The position numbers and the translations under genes were made by a program. A model generated the notes under the pieces. The model was given only the letters and a program-made list of their open reading frames with translations, was not told where the DNA came from and ran no database searches. This document shows positions 35,175-43,973 of a DNA stretch of 51,612 nt, one piece after another. The DNA comes from Oscillospiraceae bacterium (GTDB lineage Bacteria > Bacillota > Clostridia > Oscillospirales > Ruminococcaceae), in contig JAQXGE010000027.1 in assembly GCA_029006135.1 (NCBI GenBank), forward strand, positions 1 through 51,612. Direction: 5' to 3'. The stretch's first letter is position 1. Each line of letters opens with the position of its first letter.

Positions 35175-36458
35175 ATGGCCGCGAAGACATTGTACACTGT
35201 GATCGTTGCCGACGATGAGGATGAGCTGCGCGAAGCTGTCTGCTCAATGATTCCCTGGCAGGAACTGGGGTTCCGCCTGGTGGGCAGCGCCAGCAACGGC
35301 TTGGACGCCCTGCAGCTTGTGGAGAAGCTCGAGCCCGACCTGCTTTTGACTGACATCCGGATGCCCTTTATTTCCGGCATTGAGCTGGCCCGACAGGTGC
35401 GGGAGATTCGCCCCGCCATGAACATCGCCTTTTTGAGCGGCTACGATGATTTCGAGTACGCCAAACAGGCCATCCAGTACAATATCATCAGCTATATGCT
35501 CAAGCCTCTGACCATGGAAGGCCTTGCCGCCGAGCTGCGCAGCATCCGTCAGAAGATTGATGAAAAGTTTGCCATGTTCCGCCAGGCCGATGACCAGGCC
35601 GCAGGCCAGGATATGCGCGCCGCCATGCTGATGCCCTTGGTGCTGGACGACTATGCCGAGTCGGAAGGCGAGGCCCAGGCTGAAGCCTACGCCCGGCAGT
35701 GCGGGCTTTTGCGCGATTTGGATGACAAACCCTGCTATACCGTGATGGTCTCAACTCTGCTGGATGAGGACGGCGCCAACTGCACCGCTCCCTCCTTTGT
35801 GAGGTCGGTGGACACGCTGGCCGCCAAATACCTGCGCAGCGTCAGCTTTTTTGCGGCGGGCAAGGTCATCTCGGTACTGCTGGGCAATCCCTCCGATTTT
35901 GACGAGTACCTGCACATTCTGGCCGACGAAATTCCCCAGGTGGCCGCCCGCATCCTGGGCAAACACTGCCGCATCGGCGTCAGCCGCGCGGCCCGGTCTC
36001 TGACCGGCCTGCACGATGCCTACCGGGAAGCCATGGAAGTCCTGCGCCAGGGCGACCCTACCGAGGGCGGCGCCCAGTTCATTAGTGACCTTGTCCCCGC
36101 TGCCAAAGGCGGCAGCCTGCTGTGCAAGCGGGCGTTGGACGCCCTGGACCAGCATTACATGGACGCCGACCTTTCCTTAGTATCCCTGAGCGGAATGCTG
36201 GACGTTAGCCCCAACCATCTGAGTGCCTGCATCAAGAAGTATGCCGGTGAGACTTTCATCAACATCCTGATCCGCAAGCGGATGGACGCCGCGCGGGAGC
36301 TTCTGGAATCCTCCAACCTCAAGATTCAGGAGGTCGCTCAGCGCTGCGGCTATACCGACCAGCACTATTTCAGCTACTGCTTCAAAAAATACTGCGGCGA
36401 GTCCCCCAACGCCCTGCGGCGCAGACTAGGCTCCGAAAAGGCGGGTGACGCGTCTTGA
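35175..36458 (+). CDS. AraC-type response regulator (YesN family)
   Basis: 427 aa. The receiver domain (residues 8-125) has the acidic pocket VADDEDE, the phosphoacceptor Asp60 in LLLTDIRMPF and the KPL lysine (SYMLKPL). The last ~100 residues are an AraC-type double HTH (VSPNHLSACIKKYAGETFIN, then KIQEVAQRCGYTDQHYFSYC). It should activate the adjacent sugar transport genes when phosphorylated by the kinase encoded next. Start choice is uncertain: the best SD (AAAGGAG, 35153-35159) points to an out-of-frame ATG at 35165, while the in-frame ATG at 35175 is about 15 nt from it. Its stop overlaps the kinase start. Confidence 0.92.
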   Translation: MAAKTLYTVIVADDEDELREAVCSMIPWQELGFRLVGSASNGLDALQLVEKLEPDLLLTDIRMPFISGIELARQVREIRPAMNIAFLSGYDDFEYAKQAIQYNIISYMLKPLTMEGLAAELRSIRQKIDEKFAMFRQADDQAAGQDMRAAMLMPLVLDDYAESEGEAQAEAYARQCGLLRDLDDKPCYTVMVSTLLDEDGANCTAPSFVRSVDTLAAKYLRSVSFFAAGKVISVLLGNPSDFDEYLHILADEIPQVAARILGKHCRIGVSRAARSLTGLHDAYREAMEVLRQGDPTEGGAQFISDLVPAAKGGSLLCKRALDALDQHYMDADLSLVSLSGMLDVSPNHLSACIKKYAGETFINILIRKRMDAARELLESSNLKIQEVAQRCGYTDQHYFSYCFKKYCGESPNALRRRLGSEKAGDAS

Positions 36459-38173
36459 AAGACCGATGCCCACATACCGGCCTGCGCATCACGACCATCC
36501 TTGTCTCCATGGTCGTAGGCGTGGTGGCCGTCATCCTGTGCTGCTGCATCTTCCTGTTCCTGGGCCGGTACCGCAGCGCCATGGTGCAGAGCGCCCAGAC
36601 CAGCAGCGCCCAGGCGGTCTCCCAAGTATCCAACACGGTAGGAAATTATCTGCTGGATATGGATCAGGCCATGCAGCTGGTGGAACAATCCATGTCGGAA
36701 AGTGTGGACAGCCGCGATGAACTGCTGTCCGCTTTTTTAAAATTTCGCCCCGACGTGGTGGCGGTGACCAGCTATTCCTCCGATGGTACTCTGCTGGACT
36801 GCTGGTCCCTGAACCACCAACCCAAGGAGAACATTTTCCAGAATCTTTCCTTTAGCATTGACAAGGCTCGCGCTTCCGGCGGGCCTTATATGACTGCGCC
36901 CCATGTAGAGACCATTTTTGAAAGCTACTATCCCTGGGTCGTCACCATGACTGCTCCGCTGACCGGCAGCGAGGAAGCCTCCTGGGTATCCCTGGACCTG
37001 AGCTTTTCCAGCATTTCCAGCTACATCAACAGCGTGGGCATTGGCCAGCGCGGTTACTGCTTTTTGATGGACACAGACGGCAATATCATCTACCACCCCC
37101 AGCAGCAGCTTCTTTATTCGGGGCTGAAGTCGGAGGATACCTCTGCCCTGGCTGCCCTACAGGACGGCTCCTACGCGGACGACACCGTCATTTACTGCGT
37201 CACCAGCATTGAAAGCAGCGGCTGGCGGGTAGTGGGCGTCAGCTATATAGACGAACTGGTCAACCGCAATGTCACCGAGATGATTCATCTTTCCATTTTG
37301 CTGGCCTTTGTGGTGCTGGCTGCGGCTCTGCTGACCAGCTGGCTGCTTTCCCAGCTGCTGGGCCGTCCCCTGCGTGGACTGGCCTCCGCCATGGAAAGCT
37401 TCGAGACCGACGCGGACCACTTTACCTACCGTCCGGTGGGCGGTACCCGGGAAGTTCAGGAACTGTCCAATTCCTTCGGACACATGGTGGTGCGCATCCA
37501 GGAACTGATGACCACCGTCCGCGAGGAGGAGGTCAACCTGCGCAAGACCGAGCTGAAGGCATTGCAGGCCCAGATCAACCCCCACTTTCTGTACAACACC
37601 CTGGACTCCATCGCCTGGATGTGTGAGCAGGGCCGCACCGCCGACGCCGTCAAGATGATCCATGCCCTGGCCCGGCTGTTCCGCATCAGCATCAGCAAGG
37701 GGCACGAGCTCATCCCTATCTCCAAGGAGATTGAGCACGCGGAAAGCTATCTCCAGATTCAGAAATACCGCTACAAGAACAAGTTCACCTATGAATTTGA
37801 CGTAGACCCCGAATGCCTCGATTATCTCTGCAACAAGATTACCCTGCAGCCCATCATTGAGAACGCCATCAACCACGGCTTGGACCTGATGGTGGAGGAA
37901 GGGCACATCGATGTGCGGGTTCGGCAGGACGGCGGGGACATCGTTTTCTTTGTGCAGGACAACGGCGTGGGCATGACGCCGGAGCAGATTGAAGCCATCA
38001 TGCAGCGCGGTCCCAAAGACCGCACCGGCATCGGCATCAAGAACGTCAACGACCGGCTCAAAATCTATTTCGGCAAAAATTACGGGCTGCATATCACCAG
38101 CGAGCCAGATGTCGGCACCTGTGTGGAAATTCGTATGCCCAAGGTACGGGAGGGCGACCATGACACGAAATAA
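36455..38173 (+). CDS. Sensor histidine kinase, YesM/LytS type
   Basis: 572 aa. A first membrane segment (about 11-37) and a second (about 275-300) flank an extracellular Cache-like sensor domain. Next come a HAMP linker (LGRPLRGLASAMESFETDAD), the His_kinase domain with phosphorylatable His377 in INPHFLYNTLDSIAWM, and a HATPase domain (NAINHGLD, GVGMTPEQIEAIM, GIGIKNVNDRLKIYFG). This architecture pairs with AraC-type regulators and often senses sugars through a binding protein. The TTG start overlaps the regulator stop (TTGA), and the end overlaps the lipoprotein gene by 14 bp, so all three are coupled. Confidence 0.93.
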   Translation: MKDRCPHTGLRITTILVSMVVGVVAVILCCCIFLFLGRYRSAMVQSAQTSSAQAVSQVSNTVGNYLLDMDQAMQLVEQSMSESVDSRDELLSAFLKFRPDVVAVTSYSSDGTLLDCWSLNHQPKENIFQNLSFSIDKARASGGPYMTAPHVETIFESYYPWVVTMTAPLTGSEEASWVSLDLSFSSISSYINSVGIGQRGYCFLMDTDGNIIYHPQQQLLYSGLKSEDTSALAALQDGSYADDTVIYCVTSIESSGWRVVGVSYIDELVNRNVTEMIHLSILLAFVVLAAALLTSWLLSQLLGRPLRGLASAMESFETDADHFTYRPVGGTREVQELSNSFGHMVVRIQELMTTVREEEVNLRKTELKALQAQINPHFLYNTLDSIAWMCEQGRTADAVKMIHALARLFRISISKGHELIPISKEIEHAESYLQIQKYRYKNKFTYEFDVDPECLDYLCNKITLQPIIENAINHGLDLMVEEGHIDVRVRQDGGDIVFFVQDNGVGMTPEQIEAIMQRGPKDRTGIGIKNVNDRLKIYFGKNYGLHITSEPDVGTCVEIRMPKVREGDHDTK

Positions 38174-39152
38174 ACGGGCATTGGCCTGCGCGGCGCTGGC
38201 TCTCGCCTGCCTGTGCGGCTGTACATCGGACACGATATCATCGGCGCAGCATTCGGTGGCTCTGGTGGCGAAATCCACCGAGACCGAGTTCTGGCTGTCG
38301 GTCTTTGCCGGAGCCGAAGCCGCCGCCACCGAGTACAACCTCAAGCTCAGCATTCTCGGCCCCGAAACAGAGGAGGACTACGAAACCCAGAACCGGATGG
38401 TCGCACAGGCCGTCTCCGAAGGCGCCGAGGCTCTGGTCTTTTCCGCCATCGACTATGAGAACAACGCCGATGCCATCGACCGTGCCGCCAGCCAGGGCGT
38501 CAAAATCGTGGCCATTGACAGCAATGTAGATTCGGAGGCGGTCAGCACCTACATCGGCACCGACAACTATGCCGCCGGGCAGATGGCCGCACAGGCCGCC
38601 CTTGACCAGGTGGAGGGTAAGCTGAAGGTTGGCATTGTCAACTATGACATCAGCAGTGCCAACGGTCAGGAGCGGGAGCGCGGGGCCGTGGACGCCTTTA
38701 CCGCCAGCGGCCGTGCGGAAATCACCGCCGTCATCAATACCCTGGCCGAAGCTCAGCACGCCCAGAACGACACCGCTGATCTTTTGCGGCAGTACCCCGA
38801 GATCAACGTTCTGCTGGCCTTCAACGAGCCCACCTGCGTGGGTGCAGCCAGTGCCGTGGAGGAGCTGGGCCTTTCGGACACGGTATTCCTGGTCGGGTTT
38901 GACTCCAACGTGGTGACGGTGGACGGCCTGCAGGAAGGCACCGTGGATGCGCTCATCGTACAAAACCCCTATGCCATGGGCTATCTGGGCGTGGAAAGCG
39001 CCTACAAACTGCTGACCGGACAGGGTTCCGGCCTGGAACGGAACGTGGATACTTCCACCCGGATCGTAGATCGCGACAATATATTTACAATGGACAGTCA
39101 AAAGGCCCTTTTTGCCTTTGAGCATCGCAAAACTAAGCAACTTGCACAATAA
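38160..39152 (+). CDS. Sugar-binding lipoprotein, probable third component of the sensor system
   Basis: 330 aa. The lipobox LCGC gives a mature Cys21. The rest is a canonical-order Peripla_BP_4 (RbsB/XylF-like) fold: SVALVAKSTETEFWLSVFAG, EALVFSAIDYENNADAIDRA, VAIDSNVDSEAVSTYIGTDN, NVLLAFNEPTCVGAASAVEE and FLVGFDSNVVTVDGLQEGTV. It is encoded with the kinase and regulator rather than with the permease, as in the XylFII-LytST three-component systems of Clostridium, so it probably presents ligand to the kinase. The ATG at 38160 has GGGAGG 6 nt upstream; the longer upstream frame is rejected. Confidence 0.9.
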   Translation: MTRNKRALACAALALACLCGCTSDTISSAQHSVALVAKSTETEFWLSVFAGAEAAATEYNLKLSILGPETEEDYETQNRMVAQAVSEGAEALVFSAIDYENNADAIDRAASQGVKIVAIDSNVDSEAVSTYIGTDNYAAGQMAAQAALDQVEGKLKVGIVNYDISSANGQERERGAVDAFTASGRAEITAVINTLAEAQHAQNDTADLLRQYPEINVLLAFNEPTCVGAASAVEELGLSDTVFLVGFDSNVVTVDGLQEGTVDALIVQNPYAMGYLGVESAYKLLTGQGSGLERNVDTSTRIVDRDNIFTMDSQKALFAFEHRKTKQLAQ

Positions 39153-39318: not shown

Positions 39319-40623
39319 ATGAAAAAAACACTTGCACTGACCTTGGCAGCAGCCATGGCTCTGAGCCTGGCGGCCTGCTCCGGCGACACTGCGTCGGAGT
39401 CTTCCTCCGCGGCCGGCACCTCTGAGGCTGCCTCCGCTTCTACCTCCGCTGAGACCGGCACTGTCGCCAACAAGGACAAGCCTCTGGTCTGGTACAACCG
39501 TCAGCCCTCCAACAGCACCACCGGCGAGCTGGATATGGAAGCTCTGACCTTCAACGACAACACCTACTATGTCGGTTTCGATGCCAACCAGGGCGCTGAG
39601 CTGCAGGGCAAGATGGTCGTTGACTACATTGCTGCCCACGCCGACACCATCGACCGCAACGGCGATGGCATCATCGGCTACGTTCTGGCCATCGGCGATA
39701 TCGGCCACAACGACTCCATCGCACGTACCCGCGGCGTCCGCTCTGCTCTGGGCACCGCTGTTGAGGGTGAGAACGGCATCGTCTCCGATCCCGTCGGCAC
39801 CAACTTGGAAGGCAAGGCCACCCAGGTTCAGGACGGCACTCTCGAAGTTGGCGGCAAGACCTTCACCGTCCGTGAGCTCGCTTCTCAGGAAATGAAGAAC
39901 TCCGCCGGCGCCACTTGGGATGCTTCCACCGCCAGCACCGCGCTGACCACCTGGTCCTCCTCCATGGGCGATAACATCGACATCGTCATCTCCAACAACG
40001 ACGGCATGGGCATGGCTATGTTCAACATCTGGTCCAAGGCCAACGGCGTTCCCACCTTCGGTTATGACGCCAACGCTGACGCTGTTGCCGCTATCGCAGA
40101 AGGCTACGGCGGAACCATCAGCCAGCACGCTGACGTTCAGGCTTACTTGACTCTCCGCCTTGTCCGCAACGCTCTCGACGGCGTTGACATCAACACCGGT
40201 ATTGCCACTGCTGACGACGCCGGCAACGTTCTGAGCGACGATGTCTACTACTATGACGAGGCTTCCCGTTCTTACTACGCTCTGAACGTGGCTGTCACCG
40301 CTGACAATTATAAGGATTTCATGGACTCCACCGTTCCTTACGCTCCGGTCTCCAATCAGCTGGATACCACCGCTCACCCCGAGAAGACCGTCTGGCTCGA
40401 CATCTACAATGCTGCCGACAACTTCCTGAGCGCCACCTATCAGCCCCTGCTGGAGAAGTACGACGATCTGCTCAACCTGAAAGTTGACTACATCGGCGGC
40501 GATGGCCAGACCGAGGGCAACATCACCAACCGTCTGGGCAACCCCGATGCGTACGACGCCTTCGCCATCAACATGGTTAAGACCGACAACGCGTCTTCCT
40601 ACACCTCTCTGCTGAGCCAGTGA
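39319..40623 (+). CDS. mglB: Galactose-type substrate-binding lipoprotein, circularly permuted
   Basis: 434 aa (about 100 longer than E. coli MglB). Lipobox LAAC gives Cys20, then an S/T/A-rich linker (21-52). The family motifs occur in rotated order. KPLVWYNRQPS (54-64) equals the VPVVFFNKEPS region; then come YYVGFD, the Ca2+ loop DRNGDG (112-117), GHND, Trp200, ISNND and FGYD250. After a linker (about 338-356) the usual N-terminal segment follows: WLDIYNAADNFLS (359-371) to DAFAINMVKTDN (413-424). Ligand residues of MglB (Asp14, Phe16, Asn91, His152, Arg158, Trp183, Asp236) have equivalents; Asn256 aligns with Gln269. It should bind galactose/glucose and deliver it to MglAC. Confidence 0.93.
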   Translation: MKKTLALTLAAAMALSLAACSGDTASESSSAAGTSEAASASTSAETGTVANKDKPLVWYNRQPSNSTTGELDMEALTFNDNTYYVGFDANQGAELQGKMVVDYIAAHADTIDRNGDGIIGYVLAIGDIGHNDSIARTRGVRSALGTAVEGENGIVSDPVGTNLEGKATQVQDGTLEVGGKTFTVRELASQEMKNSAGATWDASTASTALTTWSSSMGDNIDIVISNNDGMGMAMFNIWSKANGVPTFGYDANADAVAAIAEGYGGTISQHADVQAYLTLRLVRNALDGVDINTGIATADDAGNVLSDDVYYYDEASRSYYALNVAVTADNYKDFMDSTVPYAPVSNQLDTTAHPEKTVWLDIYNAADNFLSATYQPLLEKYDDLLNLKVDYIGGDGQTEGNITNRLGNPDAYDAFAINMVKTDNASSYTSLLSQ

Positions 40624-40666: not shown

Positions 40667-40729
40667 CGCTATTAGGGAGAAGGAATTTCTCCATTGGGGA
40701 GAATACGCCCTCCCTAATAGCGCTTTTTT
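40667..40729 (+). terminator. Intra-operon terminator between mglB and mglA
   Basis: A 13-bp perfect stem (CGCTATTAGGGAG at 40667-40679, CTCCCTAATAGCG at 40710-40722) with an internal small hairpin is followed by T6. It lies within the 161-bp mglB-mglA gap, with no obvious promoter between it and mglA. Partial termination would make more binding protein than ATPase/permease. Confidence 0.8.
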
Positions 40730-40784: not shown

Positions 40785-42293
40785 ATGGCAGAAGCGAAAG
40801 ATGATATCGTCTTGTCAATTCGCGGTATGTGCAAGTCATTCGGCCGCAACCGAGTGCTTGACCACATCAACCTGGATGTAAAGCGCGGTACTGTCATGGG
40901 GCTTATGGGCGAAAACGGCGCCGGTAAGTCCACTATGATGAAATGTCTCTTCGGCACCTACCAGAAGGACGAGGGCAAGATCTTCCTCAACGGCAAGGAG
41001 ATTAGCTTCTCCGGGCCGAAGGATGCCCTGGAAAACGGTATCGCCATGGTCCACCAGGAGCTGAACCAGTGCCTCGAGCGCAGTGTGATCGACAACCTGT
41101 TCCTCGGCCGGTACCCGGTCAACTCCATGGGCGTCGTTGACGAAGGACAAATGAAAAAGAAGGCGGCTGACCTGTTCCGCAAACTGGGCATGACCGTCAA
41201 CCTGACCCAGCCGATGCGCAATATGTCGGTTTCGCAGCGGCAGATGTGTGAGATTGCCAAGGCGATCTCCTACAACGCCCAGGTCATCGTCCTGGACGAG
41301 CCCACTTCCTCCCTGACGGTGCAGGAAGTTGACAAACTGTTTGAAATGATGCGGATGCTCAAATCCCAGGGCATTTCGCTGATTTACATTTCACACAAGA
41401 TGGATGAGATCTTTGAGATCTGCGATGAAGTCTCCGTTCTGCGTGACGGCAACCTGGTCATGACCAAGCCTACCAAGGATACCGACATGAACGAGCTGAT
41501 CGCTGCCATGGTCGGCCGCTCTCTGGAGAGCCGCTTCCCGCCTGTGGACAACACCCCCGGCGAGCCCATCCTGTCCATTCAGCACCTGTCCACCAAGTAC
41601 GAGCCCCATCTGCAGGACATCACCTTTGATGTGCGCAAGGGCGAGATCTTCGGTCTGTACGGCCTGGTAGGCGCCGGCCGTACAGAACTTCTGGAAACCA
41701 TCTTCGGCGTGCGCACCCGCGCGGCTGGCCGCGTTTATTTCCGCAACCGGCTGATGAACTTCAACAATGCCCACGAGGCCATTGAACACGGTTTCGCACT
41801 GATCACCGAGGAACGCAAGGCGAACGGTCTGTTCCTGAAATGTGACCTGACCTTCAATACCACCATTGCCAATCTGAACCAGTACAAGACCGGCATAGCG
41901 CTTTCCAACCCCAAGATGGTCAAAGCCACCAGCAAAGAGATCAAGACCATGCACACCAAGTGCCTGGGTCCCGACGATATGATCTCCAGCCTGTCCGGCG
42001 GCAACCAGCAGAAAGTCATTTTCGGCAAGTGGCTGGAACGTGAGCCCCAGATCTTTATGATGGACGAGCCCACGCGCGGTATCGACGTCGGCGCCAAATA
42101 TGAGATCTATGAGCTGATCATCCAGATGGCCAAACAGGGCAAGACGATCATTGTCGTCTCCTCTGAGATGCCTGAGATCCTCGGCATTACCAACCGCATC
42201 GGCGTTATGTCCAACGGACATCTTTCCGGCATTGTCAACACCAAGGAGACAAACCAGGAAGAGCTTTTGAGGCTGAGTGCGAAATACCTGTGA
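40785..42293 (+). CDS. mglA: Sugar ABC transporter ATP-binding protein, two ABC domains
   Basis: 502 aa, typical of MglA/RbsA. The first domain has Walker A GENGAGKSTMMK (about residue 45), the degenerate signature MSVSQRQM and Walker B VIVLDEPTSS. The second has the usual degenerate P-loop GLVGAGRTELLE, signature LSGGNQQK and Walker B IFMMDEPTRGIDVG. It powers galactose-type sugar uptake through MglC. The SD is GGGAG about 10 nt upstream. It ends 15 bp before mglC. Confidence 0.95.
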   Translation: MAEAKDDIVLSIRGMCKSFGRNRVLDHINLDVKRGTVMGLMGENGAGKSTMMKCLFGTYQKDEGKIFLNGKEISFSGPKDALENGIAMVHQELNQCLERSVIDNLFLGRYPVNSMGVVDEGQMKKKAADLFRKLGMTVNLTQPMRNMSVSQRQMCEIAKAISYNAQVIVLDEPTSSLTVQEVDKLFEMMRMLKSQGISLIYISHKMDEIFEICDEVSVLRDGNLVMTKPTKDTDMNELIAAMVGRSLESRFPPVDNTPGEPILSIQHLSTKYEPHLQDITFDVRKGEIFGLYGLVGAGRTELLETIFGVRTRAAGRVYFRNRLMNFNNAHEAIEHGFALITEERKANGLFLKCDLTFNTTIANLNQYKTGIALSNPKMVKATSKEIKTMHTKCLGPDDMISSLSGGNQQKVIFGKWLEREPQIFMMDEPTRGIDVGAKYEIYELIIQMAKQGKTIIVVSSEMPEILGITNRIGVMSNGHLSGIVNTKETNQEELLRLSAKYL

Positions 42294-42308
42294 GTGGGGG
42301 ATAAACAA

Positions 42309-43973
42309 ATGTCTAACAGTACGATGACAAACAGTACCATTCTTTCTGCGGAGCGGGAAGCCGAGCTCCGCAAGCCGATTGATGATTACGTCGGCAAAAT
42401 TCAGGCTCAGATTGACGAACTGCGCGTCGACGGCACCGAAAAGGTCGTCAGCCTCCAGAATGACCTGGACAACCTCAAGCGCGACCGTATCTATACCGCT
42501 GAAGAAAAGGCTTCCCGCGAGAAAAAGCTGAAGGCTGCTCTGGAAACCGCCAAGGCAGTGGAAGCCAAGAACAAGGACCAGATTTCCAAGCTGATTGCTG
42601 ATGCCGAAGCTTATCTGAAAGCTCACTACAACAGCGAGTACTATCAGTACGTGGTTGCCAGCTGCAAGGAAGAAAAGGCCGCCGCTCTGGCAAAGTATCA
42701 GGCTGCTGTCGCCCAGCTGGAAAAGGATCATCAGGCCACAGTTGCCAAGCTGACCGACCAGCAGGAGATCAAGGACGAGAAGTACGTCTACAAAAACCGC
42801 ATGTTTGACGCCAAGATGCAGCGTGACAAGGACCTGCAGGCCGTCAAGGACCGCCAGCACGCCGCGTTCGATTACAAGTATCACCTGATCGATATGCTGC
42901 GCCTGTCCAAGTTCACCGTTGCCGAGACGCTCGCTCAGCGCTGGGAGAACTACAAGTACACCTTCAACCGCCGCGACTTCCTGCTGCGCAACGGTCTGTA
43001 CATCGCGATCATCGTCATTTTCATCGCGCTGTGCATCATCACCCCCATCGTCAAGAACGTTCCGCTGCTGACTGTCAACAACATTCTGAACATTCTGCAG
43101 CAGGCTTCTCCTCGTATGTTCCTGGCTTTGGGCGTTGCAGGCCTGATCCTTCTGGCCGGCACCGACCTGTCCATCGGCCGTATGGTCGGTATGGGCATGA
43201 CCGCCGCCACCATCATCATGCACAAGGGCATCAACACCGGCTCAGTCTTTGGCCATGTGTTTGACTTCACCGGCCTGCCGGTCATTGTCCGCGTGTTCCT
43301 GGCTCTGATCGTCTGCATCATCCTGTGTACCATCTTCACCACCATCGCAGGTTTCTTCACCGCCAAGTTTAAGATGCACCCCTTCATCTCCACCATGGCA
43401 AACATGCTGGTCATCTTTGGCCTGGTCACCTACTCCACCAAGGGCGTTTCCTTCGGCGGTATCGAGACCGAGATTCCCAGTATGATTATCCCCAAGATCG
43501 GCGGTTTCCCCACCATCATTCTGTGGGCTGTTGCTGCGGTCGTTATCGTCTGGTTCATCTGGAACAAGACCACCTTTGGTAAGAACCTGTTCGCAGTCGG
43601 CGGCAACCCCGAGGCAGCCGCTGTCTCCGGTATTTCCGTCTTCCGTGTCACCGTGGGCGCTTTCATCCTGGCCGGTATCCTGTACGGCTTCGGCTCCTGG
43701 CTGGAATGCATCCGTATGGTCGGCTCCGGTTCTGCCGCTTACGGCCAGGGCTGGGAAATGGACGCCATCGCGGCCTGCGTTGTCGGCGGTGTCTCCTTCA
43801 CCGGCGGTATCGGTAAGATTTCCGGCGTGGTCGTCGGTGTCTTCATCTTCACCGCTCTGACTTACTCCCTGACCACCCTTGGTATCGACACGAACCTCCA
43901 GTTCGTCTTCTCCGGCATCATCATTCTCGTCGCAGTTATGCTCGACTGCCTCAAGTACGTCCAGAAAAAGTAA
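42309..43973 (+). CDS. mglC: Sugar ABC transporter permease with N-terminal coiled-coil domain
   Basis: 554 aa, against about 336 in E. coli MglC. Residues about 228-554 are a normal MglC/RbsC permease: LLAGTDLSIGRMVGMGMTAA, FKMHPFISTMANMLVIFGL, GGNPEAAAVSGISVF and CVVGGVSFTGGIGKISGV. Residues 1-222 are extra, hydrophilic and mostly helical with heptad-like patterns (IQAQIDELRVDGTEKVVSLQ; KAAALAKYQAAVAQLEKDHQ), and by topology cytoplasmic. I do not recognise this domain. The ATG at 42309 follows GGGGG at about 8 nt. The coding is continuous, so this is a genuine fusion, not a frameshift artefact. Confidence 0.93.
   Translation: MSNSTMTNSTILSAEREAELRKPIDDYVGKIQAQIDELRVDGTEKVVSLQNDLDNLKRDRIYTAEEKASREKKLKAALETAKAVEAKNKDQISKLIADAEAYLKAHYNSEYYQYVVASCKEEKAAALAKYQAAVAQLEKDHQATVAKLTDQQEIKDEKYVYKNRMFDAKMQRDKDLQAVKDRQHAAFDYKYHLIDMLRLSKFTVAETLAQRWENYKYTFNRRDFLLRNGLYIAIIVIFIALCIITPIVKNVPLLTVNNILNILQQASPRMFLALGVAGLILLAGTDLSIGRMVGMGMTAATIIMHKGINTGSVFGHVFDFTGLPVIVRVFLALIVCIILCTIFTTIAGFFTAKFKMHPFISTMANMLVIFGLVTYSTKGVSFGGIETEIPSMIIPKIGGFPTIILWAVAAVVIVWFIWNKTTFGKNLFAVGGNPEAAAVSGISVFRVTVGAFILAGILYGFGSWLECIRMVGSGSAAYGQGWEMDAIAACVVGGVSFTGGIGKISGVVVGVFIFTALTYSLTTLGIDTNLQFVFSGIIILVAVMLDCLKYVQKK

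Follow-up and report, generated by a model that had tools for sequence, protein, structure and literature searches.

A circularly permuted MglB-type sugar-binding lipoprotein of the known Type Ic subclass and its extended partner permease in a Gemmiger-like gut bacterium

The closest described relative of the protein analysed here is TpMglB-2 (Tp0684), the founding member of its subclass, whose crystal structure, published in 2016 (PMC4990184), was described as circularly permuted, with Type Ic and Cluster Bc proposed as names. The same text reports that TpMglB-2 binds glucose with a KD of 1.1 μM, that its chain makes an extended connection after the fourth hinge, and that homologues occur in treponemes and in Gram-positive gut bacteria, the product of the permease gene being similarly distributed. 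It also raises the possibility that the rotated end was derived from a different gene, and gives 13% identity for that end. A literature search, judged on titles and abstracts, found no further natural case of a permuted binding protein.

We analysed a 51,612-nucleotide stretch of DNA from an Oscillospiraceae bacterium (assembly GCA_029006135.1, contig JAQXGE010000027.1, positions 1-51,612 of the forward strand), referred to below as the window. A first-pass annotation had called the product of its open reading frame at 39319-40623 an MglB-type binding protein with a rotated order of motifs; the coordinates and frame proved correct on re-check. The features of the locus are as follows.

35175..36458, + strand: response regulator with an AraC-type C-terminus, named by reading the sequence
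36455..38173, + strand: sensor histidine kinase, named by reading the sequence
37989..39152, + strand: canonical-order Peripla_BP_4 protein beside the sensor kinase (family searches), likely its sensory partner
39319..40623, + strand: Type Ic (circularly permuted) MglB, glucose/galactose-binding lipoprotein, 434 aa (Pfam, phmmer, profile alignment)
39319..39474, + strand: signal peptide with lipobox (Cys20) and S/T/A-rich tether, residues 1-52 (from sequence; lipidation predicted)
39475..40323, + strand: residues 53-335, the counterpart of canonical MglB from near mature residue 86 through to the C-terminus (hhalign E 1.2e-38)
40324..40383, + strand: linker from old C-terminus to old N-terminus, residues 336-355, with no counterpart in canonical MglB (alignments)
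40384..40620, + strand: residues 356-434, equivalent to the canonical MglB N-terminus (PF18610; hhalign to canonical 9-81)
40667..40729, + strand: strong hairpin with a U run behind it in the mglB-mglA gap, resembling a terminator or processing site (-32.1 kcal/mol, z -5.5)
40785..42293, + strand: MglA-type ATPase, 502 aa (Pfam ABC_tran, two stretches)
42294..42977, + strand: N-terminal hydrophilic extension of MglC, about 228 residues, no known domain (no significant family match; co-occurs with the permuted binding protein)
42978..43973, + strand: MglC-type permease body (PRK09478 MglC 273 bits, below the 386 cut-off; BPD_transp_2 at residues 263-547)

We compared the order of the chain with that of canonical MglB by profile-profile alignment (hhalign), using a permuted profile of 96 sequences (95 extracted ones, the window's own included and near-copies kept, plus 5jx2) and a canonical profile of 31 MglBs (E. 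coli and 30 from the window's bacterial order). Residues 55-335 aligned to canonical MglB 86-307 (score 261.5) and residues 362-431 to canonical 9-79 (score 30.9, E 2.1e-4); when two plasmid-borne sequences were added, the second match covered residues 362-433 and canonical 9-81 (score 32.2, E 1.2e-4). The family profile, once rotated, gave one continuous alignment of 292 columns to canonical MglB (score 288.5), versus 218 columns (score 263.0) for the unrotated profile. The canonical Type I/Cluster B order, in which strands 1-3 of the N-lobe are N-terminal, is thus not the one found here, the unrotated profile aligning only from canonical residue 86. The rotation claimed by the first-pass annotation was borne out, with the front of the chain lying on canonical 86-307 and its end on the canonical N-terminus.

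Family models gave the same picture piece by piece. Residues 80-288 matched the middle and end of the Pfam Peripla_BP_4 profile (positions 94-256), and the C-terminal residues 355-425 made a complete match (1-71) to PF18610, Peripla_BP_7, a 'Periplasmic binding protein domain' whose model spans the rotated C-terminal piece only. The NCBIfam MglB model scored the protein at 87 bits, against a cut-off of 420. In a phmmer search of the PDB, residues 51-432 were colinear with 5jx2, the TpMglB-2 structure (E 1.4e-91), and the same held for 6bgc and 6bgd, titled 'Glucose/galactose-binding lipoprotein'; canonical MglB chains gave far weaker matches, split into two pieces (8fxu, for instance, at E 1.7e-20). 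Since the solved homologue 5jx2 is colinear with the window protein, we regard the rotated order as firm. The homologue search in PMC4990184 asked for coverage above 90% and matching N-termini, and such a match joins residues 51-432 of 434 here to 19-385 of 387 in TpMglB-2, a span that covers the mature part, leaves out signal peptide and tether, and makes up 88% of the precursor. As judged from its sequence, the product of 39319-40623 is therefore a member of the already known Type Ic/Cluster Bc permuted subclass and not a novel type.

Several details of the earlier reading can be refined. It had placed a linker of about 18 residues between the old termini; the linker exists, with a length of about 20 residues (336-355), and by analogy it is probably the counterpart of the extended connection that follows the fourth hinge in TpMglB-2. 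An added domain formed by residues 357-434 beside an already complete N-lobe, which would have spoken against permutation, is absent as far as sequence can tell, because the canonical N-terminus is matched by residues 362-433 and the front of the protein begins only at canonical 86, leaving no second N-lobe start. The shift of the lipid anchor's attachment point follows from the rotated chain order, and the TpMglB-2 authors discuss it likewise (PMC4990184); as the earlier reading proposed, it may alter how the protein docks on the permease. Cys20 of the lipobox was invariant in 22 of 22 aligned sequences.

The sugar pocket was mapped through 5jx2 onto the ten glucose-contact residues of E. coli MglB given in Table 2 of PMC4990184. 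Their counterparts in the window protein are D367, F369, N60, H130, D132, R136, W200, N227, D250 and Q269, of which nine are identical to those of E. coli MglB and the tenth, Q269, is as in TpMglB-2. The seven residues first proposed as sugar contacts (N60, H130, R136, W200, D250, D367 and F369) all fall on published glucose-binding residues. These positions were invariant in all 96 aligned sequences, except 367, which is D in 95 and N in 5jx2. D112, N114 and D116 of the Ca loop are conserved, with G120 standing where E. coli has glutamine.

Relative to its two reference proteins, the window protein thus stands close to TpMglB-2, with which it shares the rotated order over the mature length, the altered Ca loop (G120), an mglB-mglA-mglC operon and nine of the ten pocket residues, at 45% identity overall. 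It differs from TpMglB-2 in having D367 in place of N311, agreeing there with D14 of E. coli, in being about 15 residues longer between 148 and 170, and in its Gram-positive host. With canonical E. coli MglB (1glg, 2gbp) it is alignable over nearly its full length once rotated and shares nine of ten glucose contacts, but it differs in chain order, in the position of the termini and in its extra linker. The profiles, the pocket residues and the solved homologue together support a natural circular permutation of MglB in which the sugar site is kept.

A search for homologues found the permuted order in many genomes, those of gut Clostridia among them. Of 41 relatives, 13 carried PF18610: the window's genome itself, 11 of the 24 remaining members of the genus and 1 of 16 from other parts of the order. 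It was also present in 12 of 295 genomes sampled from the window's order and in 20 of 200 sampled from another family of the class. Among 398 sampled from the phylum 2 had it, the window's genome and a second one from that order, neither of which is new to the count. The earlier statement that periplasmic binding proteins are rarely permuted naturally is too strong, because one permuted subclass, Type Ic, is widespread. The closest named record among the matches listed was Gemmiger gallinarum (94%). Two of eight plasmid records with a match covered most of the query: one from Agathobacter rectalis (78.5% identity, 89% covered) and one from Treponema saccharophilum (45.9%, 88% covered). On the Agathobacter rectalis plasmid (L220, 109644-124801) the permuted mglB-mglA-mglC genes are found close to integrase and IS91 transposase genes, a setting that could allow them to spread. 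Mutual exclusion of permuted and canonical MglB is not claimed, because their occurrence in 12 and 52 of the 295 genomes, with no overlap, gave a hypergeometric P of 0.09.

The window cluster contains a substrate-binding protein (SBP), a double ATPase and a BPD_transp_2 permease, the content of an MglBAC-type (CUT2) operon. A scan of genome contigs for relatives of the binding protein was evaluated for the best 80 of 565 loci, the remaining 485 of which may include canonical proteins. Among these 80, the order SBP-mglA-mglC was seen in 70, the other ten being cut short, and an orthologue (at least 45% identity) of the canonical-order binding protein lay upstream in 39. A regulator and kinase were found upstream in 46 of the best 80 of 565 loci, and a regulator downstream in 14; the fetched flank of 20 contained neither. 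The hairpin between mglB and mglA was matched in stability by none of 200 shuffled sequences, and could raise the level of the binding protein above that of the pump; as a general feature of the operon it was not retained, a crude scan being positive in 18 of 76 related loci.

Three other explanations of the locus were weighed. One is that an assembly error or frameshift joined two genes, for which it can be said that the window's genome is fragmented and 84% complete; the same order, however, recurs in the 95 extracted sequences (the window's own included, near-copies kept), in plasmid records titled complete from two phyla and in crystallised homologues, and these other assemblies refute an artefact, which we consider virtually impossible. 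It is also very unlikely that the permuted protein has lost transport and serves only as input to a sensor or chemoreceptor. A two-component system and a second binding protein do adjoin its gene, but it is the canonical-order protein that lies next to the kinase; the permuted gene directly precedes mglA-mglC in 70 of the best 80 of 565 loci, and 20 of the 80 (some cut short) have no two-component system in the fetched flank. The third concerns the rotated end, which may have been acquired from a different gene and have converged on the MglB N-terminus, in which case the protein would be a chimera without true permutation.

The low identity of this end speaks for a chimera: besides the 13% given for TpMglB-2 in PMC4990184, the window's rotated segment is 18% identical to E. 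coli MglB (mature 3-80), and E. coli MglB alone matched the rotated end weakly and partially (score 18.6, E 0.031), no higher than LsrB (19.1). The profile match to the canonical MglB N-terminus is nevertheless in register (E 2.1e-4, or 1.2e-4 with the plasmid sequences), both ends having the motifs IYxxxDNF and AINxV in common, and its score of 30.9 was reached by none of 200 column-shuffled C-terminal profiles (best 23.2); the reversed C-terminal piece scored 13.7 against the canonical profile. Single sequences of six E. coli Type I SBPs (RbsB, XylF, AraF, AlsB, YtfQ, LsrB) and of the neighbouring SBP scored 9.8-19.1 against the rotated end, and a 38-member profile of the neighbouring SBP 13.8, whereas 10 of 31 single canonical MglBs exceeded 19.1 (best 31.4, median of all 16.7), a comparison that is not like for like because just one rival family was entered as a profile. 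The top match lay within the first 120 residues for 27 of the 31 canonical MglBs (register not checked for each) versus 2 of 7 non-MglB proteins, and the mean identity of the segment was 19% to canonical MglBs versus 14% to other SBPs. A HMMER profile of six C-terminal segments, consistent with a chimera, retrieved no canonical MglB from the PDB at E up to 10, its matches being the three entries for TpMglB-2 and a viral chain at chance level (E 0.91); in Pfam the segment alone had PF18610 as its sole match at E up to 10. By BLASTP, however, the 85-residue end was covered practically throughout by one of four chosen canonical MglBs (L146, from the window's bacterial family; residues 3-84, 27%, E 3.9e-4 as a one-sequence search), while the other three gave short pieces only (best E 0.07-0.15). 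A tree of the segment put the permuted proteins on a long branch whose placement was not resolved, the 77 columns kept being too few to place them; the tree is not enlisted as support, and its long branch also leaves room for a foreign origin. We consider such an origin improbable; the evidence favours a rotated end homologous to the MglB N-terminus, though short of proof. The branch length was 4.2 for the rotated segment versus 0.97 for the rest of the protein, as if change had been faster after the permutation.

The partner permease is unusual in its length. MglC of the window has 559 aa, against 336 in E. coli MglC, a permease with no large soluble domain. Its N-terminal 228 residues in the window include 41 K/R, 39 D/E, one proline and three glycines, and contain no hydrophobic segment: mean hydropathy over 19 residues peaks at 0.53, and the first span above 1.6 starts at residue 228. 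The extension alone matched nothing near significance in PDB, Pfam or NCBIfam (best E 0.15, 0.074 and 0.16, respectively), and a literature search of a partial collection found no paper on an N-terminal extension or coiled coil of MglC; the one paper found that names tp0686 does not, in the part available, use the name MglC.

The extension (about 215-228 residues) was present in all 70 permeases visible among the best 80 of 565 binding-protein loci, presence being scored because the match begins within the first 20 residues of the window MglC; in the other ten loci the sequence ends within 1.3 kb of the binding-protein gene. A further 32 loci (12 and 20) were fetched with the extension as query and are not independent evidence, because the extension itself retrieved them; with these pooled, the permease was visible in 102 of 112 loci (96 complete, 6 cut by contig ends). 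The median identity to the window was 66% for the extension versus 89% for the body, the extension being the less conserved. Searched alone (E up to 1e-6), the extension was found in 12 of 295 and 20 of 200 genomes, the same genomes as PF18610, and among the 41 relatives in 12 of the 13 with PF18610; the thirteenth (G001) lies on a contig that stops 0.9 kb past the gene. Fisher P values for this co-occurrence were 1e-21 (295 genomes), 6e-28 (200) and 2e-9 (41 relatives), although the events counted are not independent and may reflect one origin, because the operon is inherited as a unit. The Treponema saccharophilum permease, of 562 aa, resembles the window's in its first part (32% over 77 residues, E 4e-8).

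For comparison, 18 regions with canonical operons were taken, in 13 of which MglC was recognisable (open frames of 335-439 aa); the other five gave no BLAST match in the fetched stretch. None of these 13 canonical MglCs matched the extension alone at E 1e-5, and the idea that it is shared with the longer canonical-operon MglCs was rejected. A whole-protein BLAST of one of them (L157) reaches back to residue 144 of the window MglC; a permissive BLAST of the extension against canonical MglCs gave a best E of 0.007 over 10 residues, at the first membrane helix. Six canonical-operon MglCs (L156, L157, L158, L160, L161 and L162) have a different N-terminal addition of 74-93 residues, hydrophobic by eye and perhaps forming extra membrane helices.

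From its composition, the absence of a preceding hydrophobic segment and the topology of E. coli MglC, we infer that the extension is cytosolic and helical. In one metagenome-assembled genome (L101, 7363-10701), mglA and mglC form a single 1113-residue frame that runs through the extension with no intervening stop; such a fused frame would fit a cytosolic N-terminus, but may be a sequencing error. The link between the extension and the Type Ic subclass goes beyond what the available part of PMC4990184 shows.

Taken together, the window protein is almost certainly the lipoprotein that binds substrate for an MglBAC-type (CUT2) sugar importer of a Gemmiger-like gut bacterium, in the circularly permuted Type Ic form. 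This assignment is supported by the colinear match to 5jx2, the C-terminal Peripla_BP_7 domain, the one-piece rotated alignment, the pocket and the operon order. The chain order, the pocket residues and the gene cluster are visible in the DNA itself; fold, sugar binding and closure are predicted from the solved and assayed homologue TpMglB-2, and docking on the permease and lipidation are expected from the family. The chain would start with the strand that normally comes fourth in the N-lobe, continue through the C-lobe to the old C-terminus, cross the new linker and end with the old N-terminus. By analogy, both lobes and the sugar pocket would be rebuilt from this rotated chain with the fold kept. 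Anchored through a putatively lipidated Cys20 and a flexible tether, the receptor would close on glucose and/or galactose and hand the sugar to MglC/MglA.

A more far-reaching reading is that Type Ic MglB and the extended permease make up a distinct importer subtype, in which the two arose together, depend on each other and have moved together between spirochaetes and gut Clostridia, and in which the putative cytosolic helical domain would, in this subtype only, act as a gate or scaffold for the ATPase or link uptake to phosphorylation of the sugar. We offer this as a speculation, possible but rather doubtful.

These results confirm, directly from the DNA letters, a permuted subclass of binding proteins that is known but has attracted little notice, and show how frequent it is in gut Clostridia. 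They also bring sequence evidence to bear on a question left from the 2016 work: does the rotated end share ancestry with the MglB N-terminus? Finally, the Type Ic subclass may differ from canonical MglB systems in its pump too, and not merely in its binding protein, because its partner permease has a large additional domain in every locus where the permease is visible.
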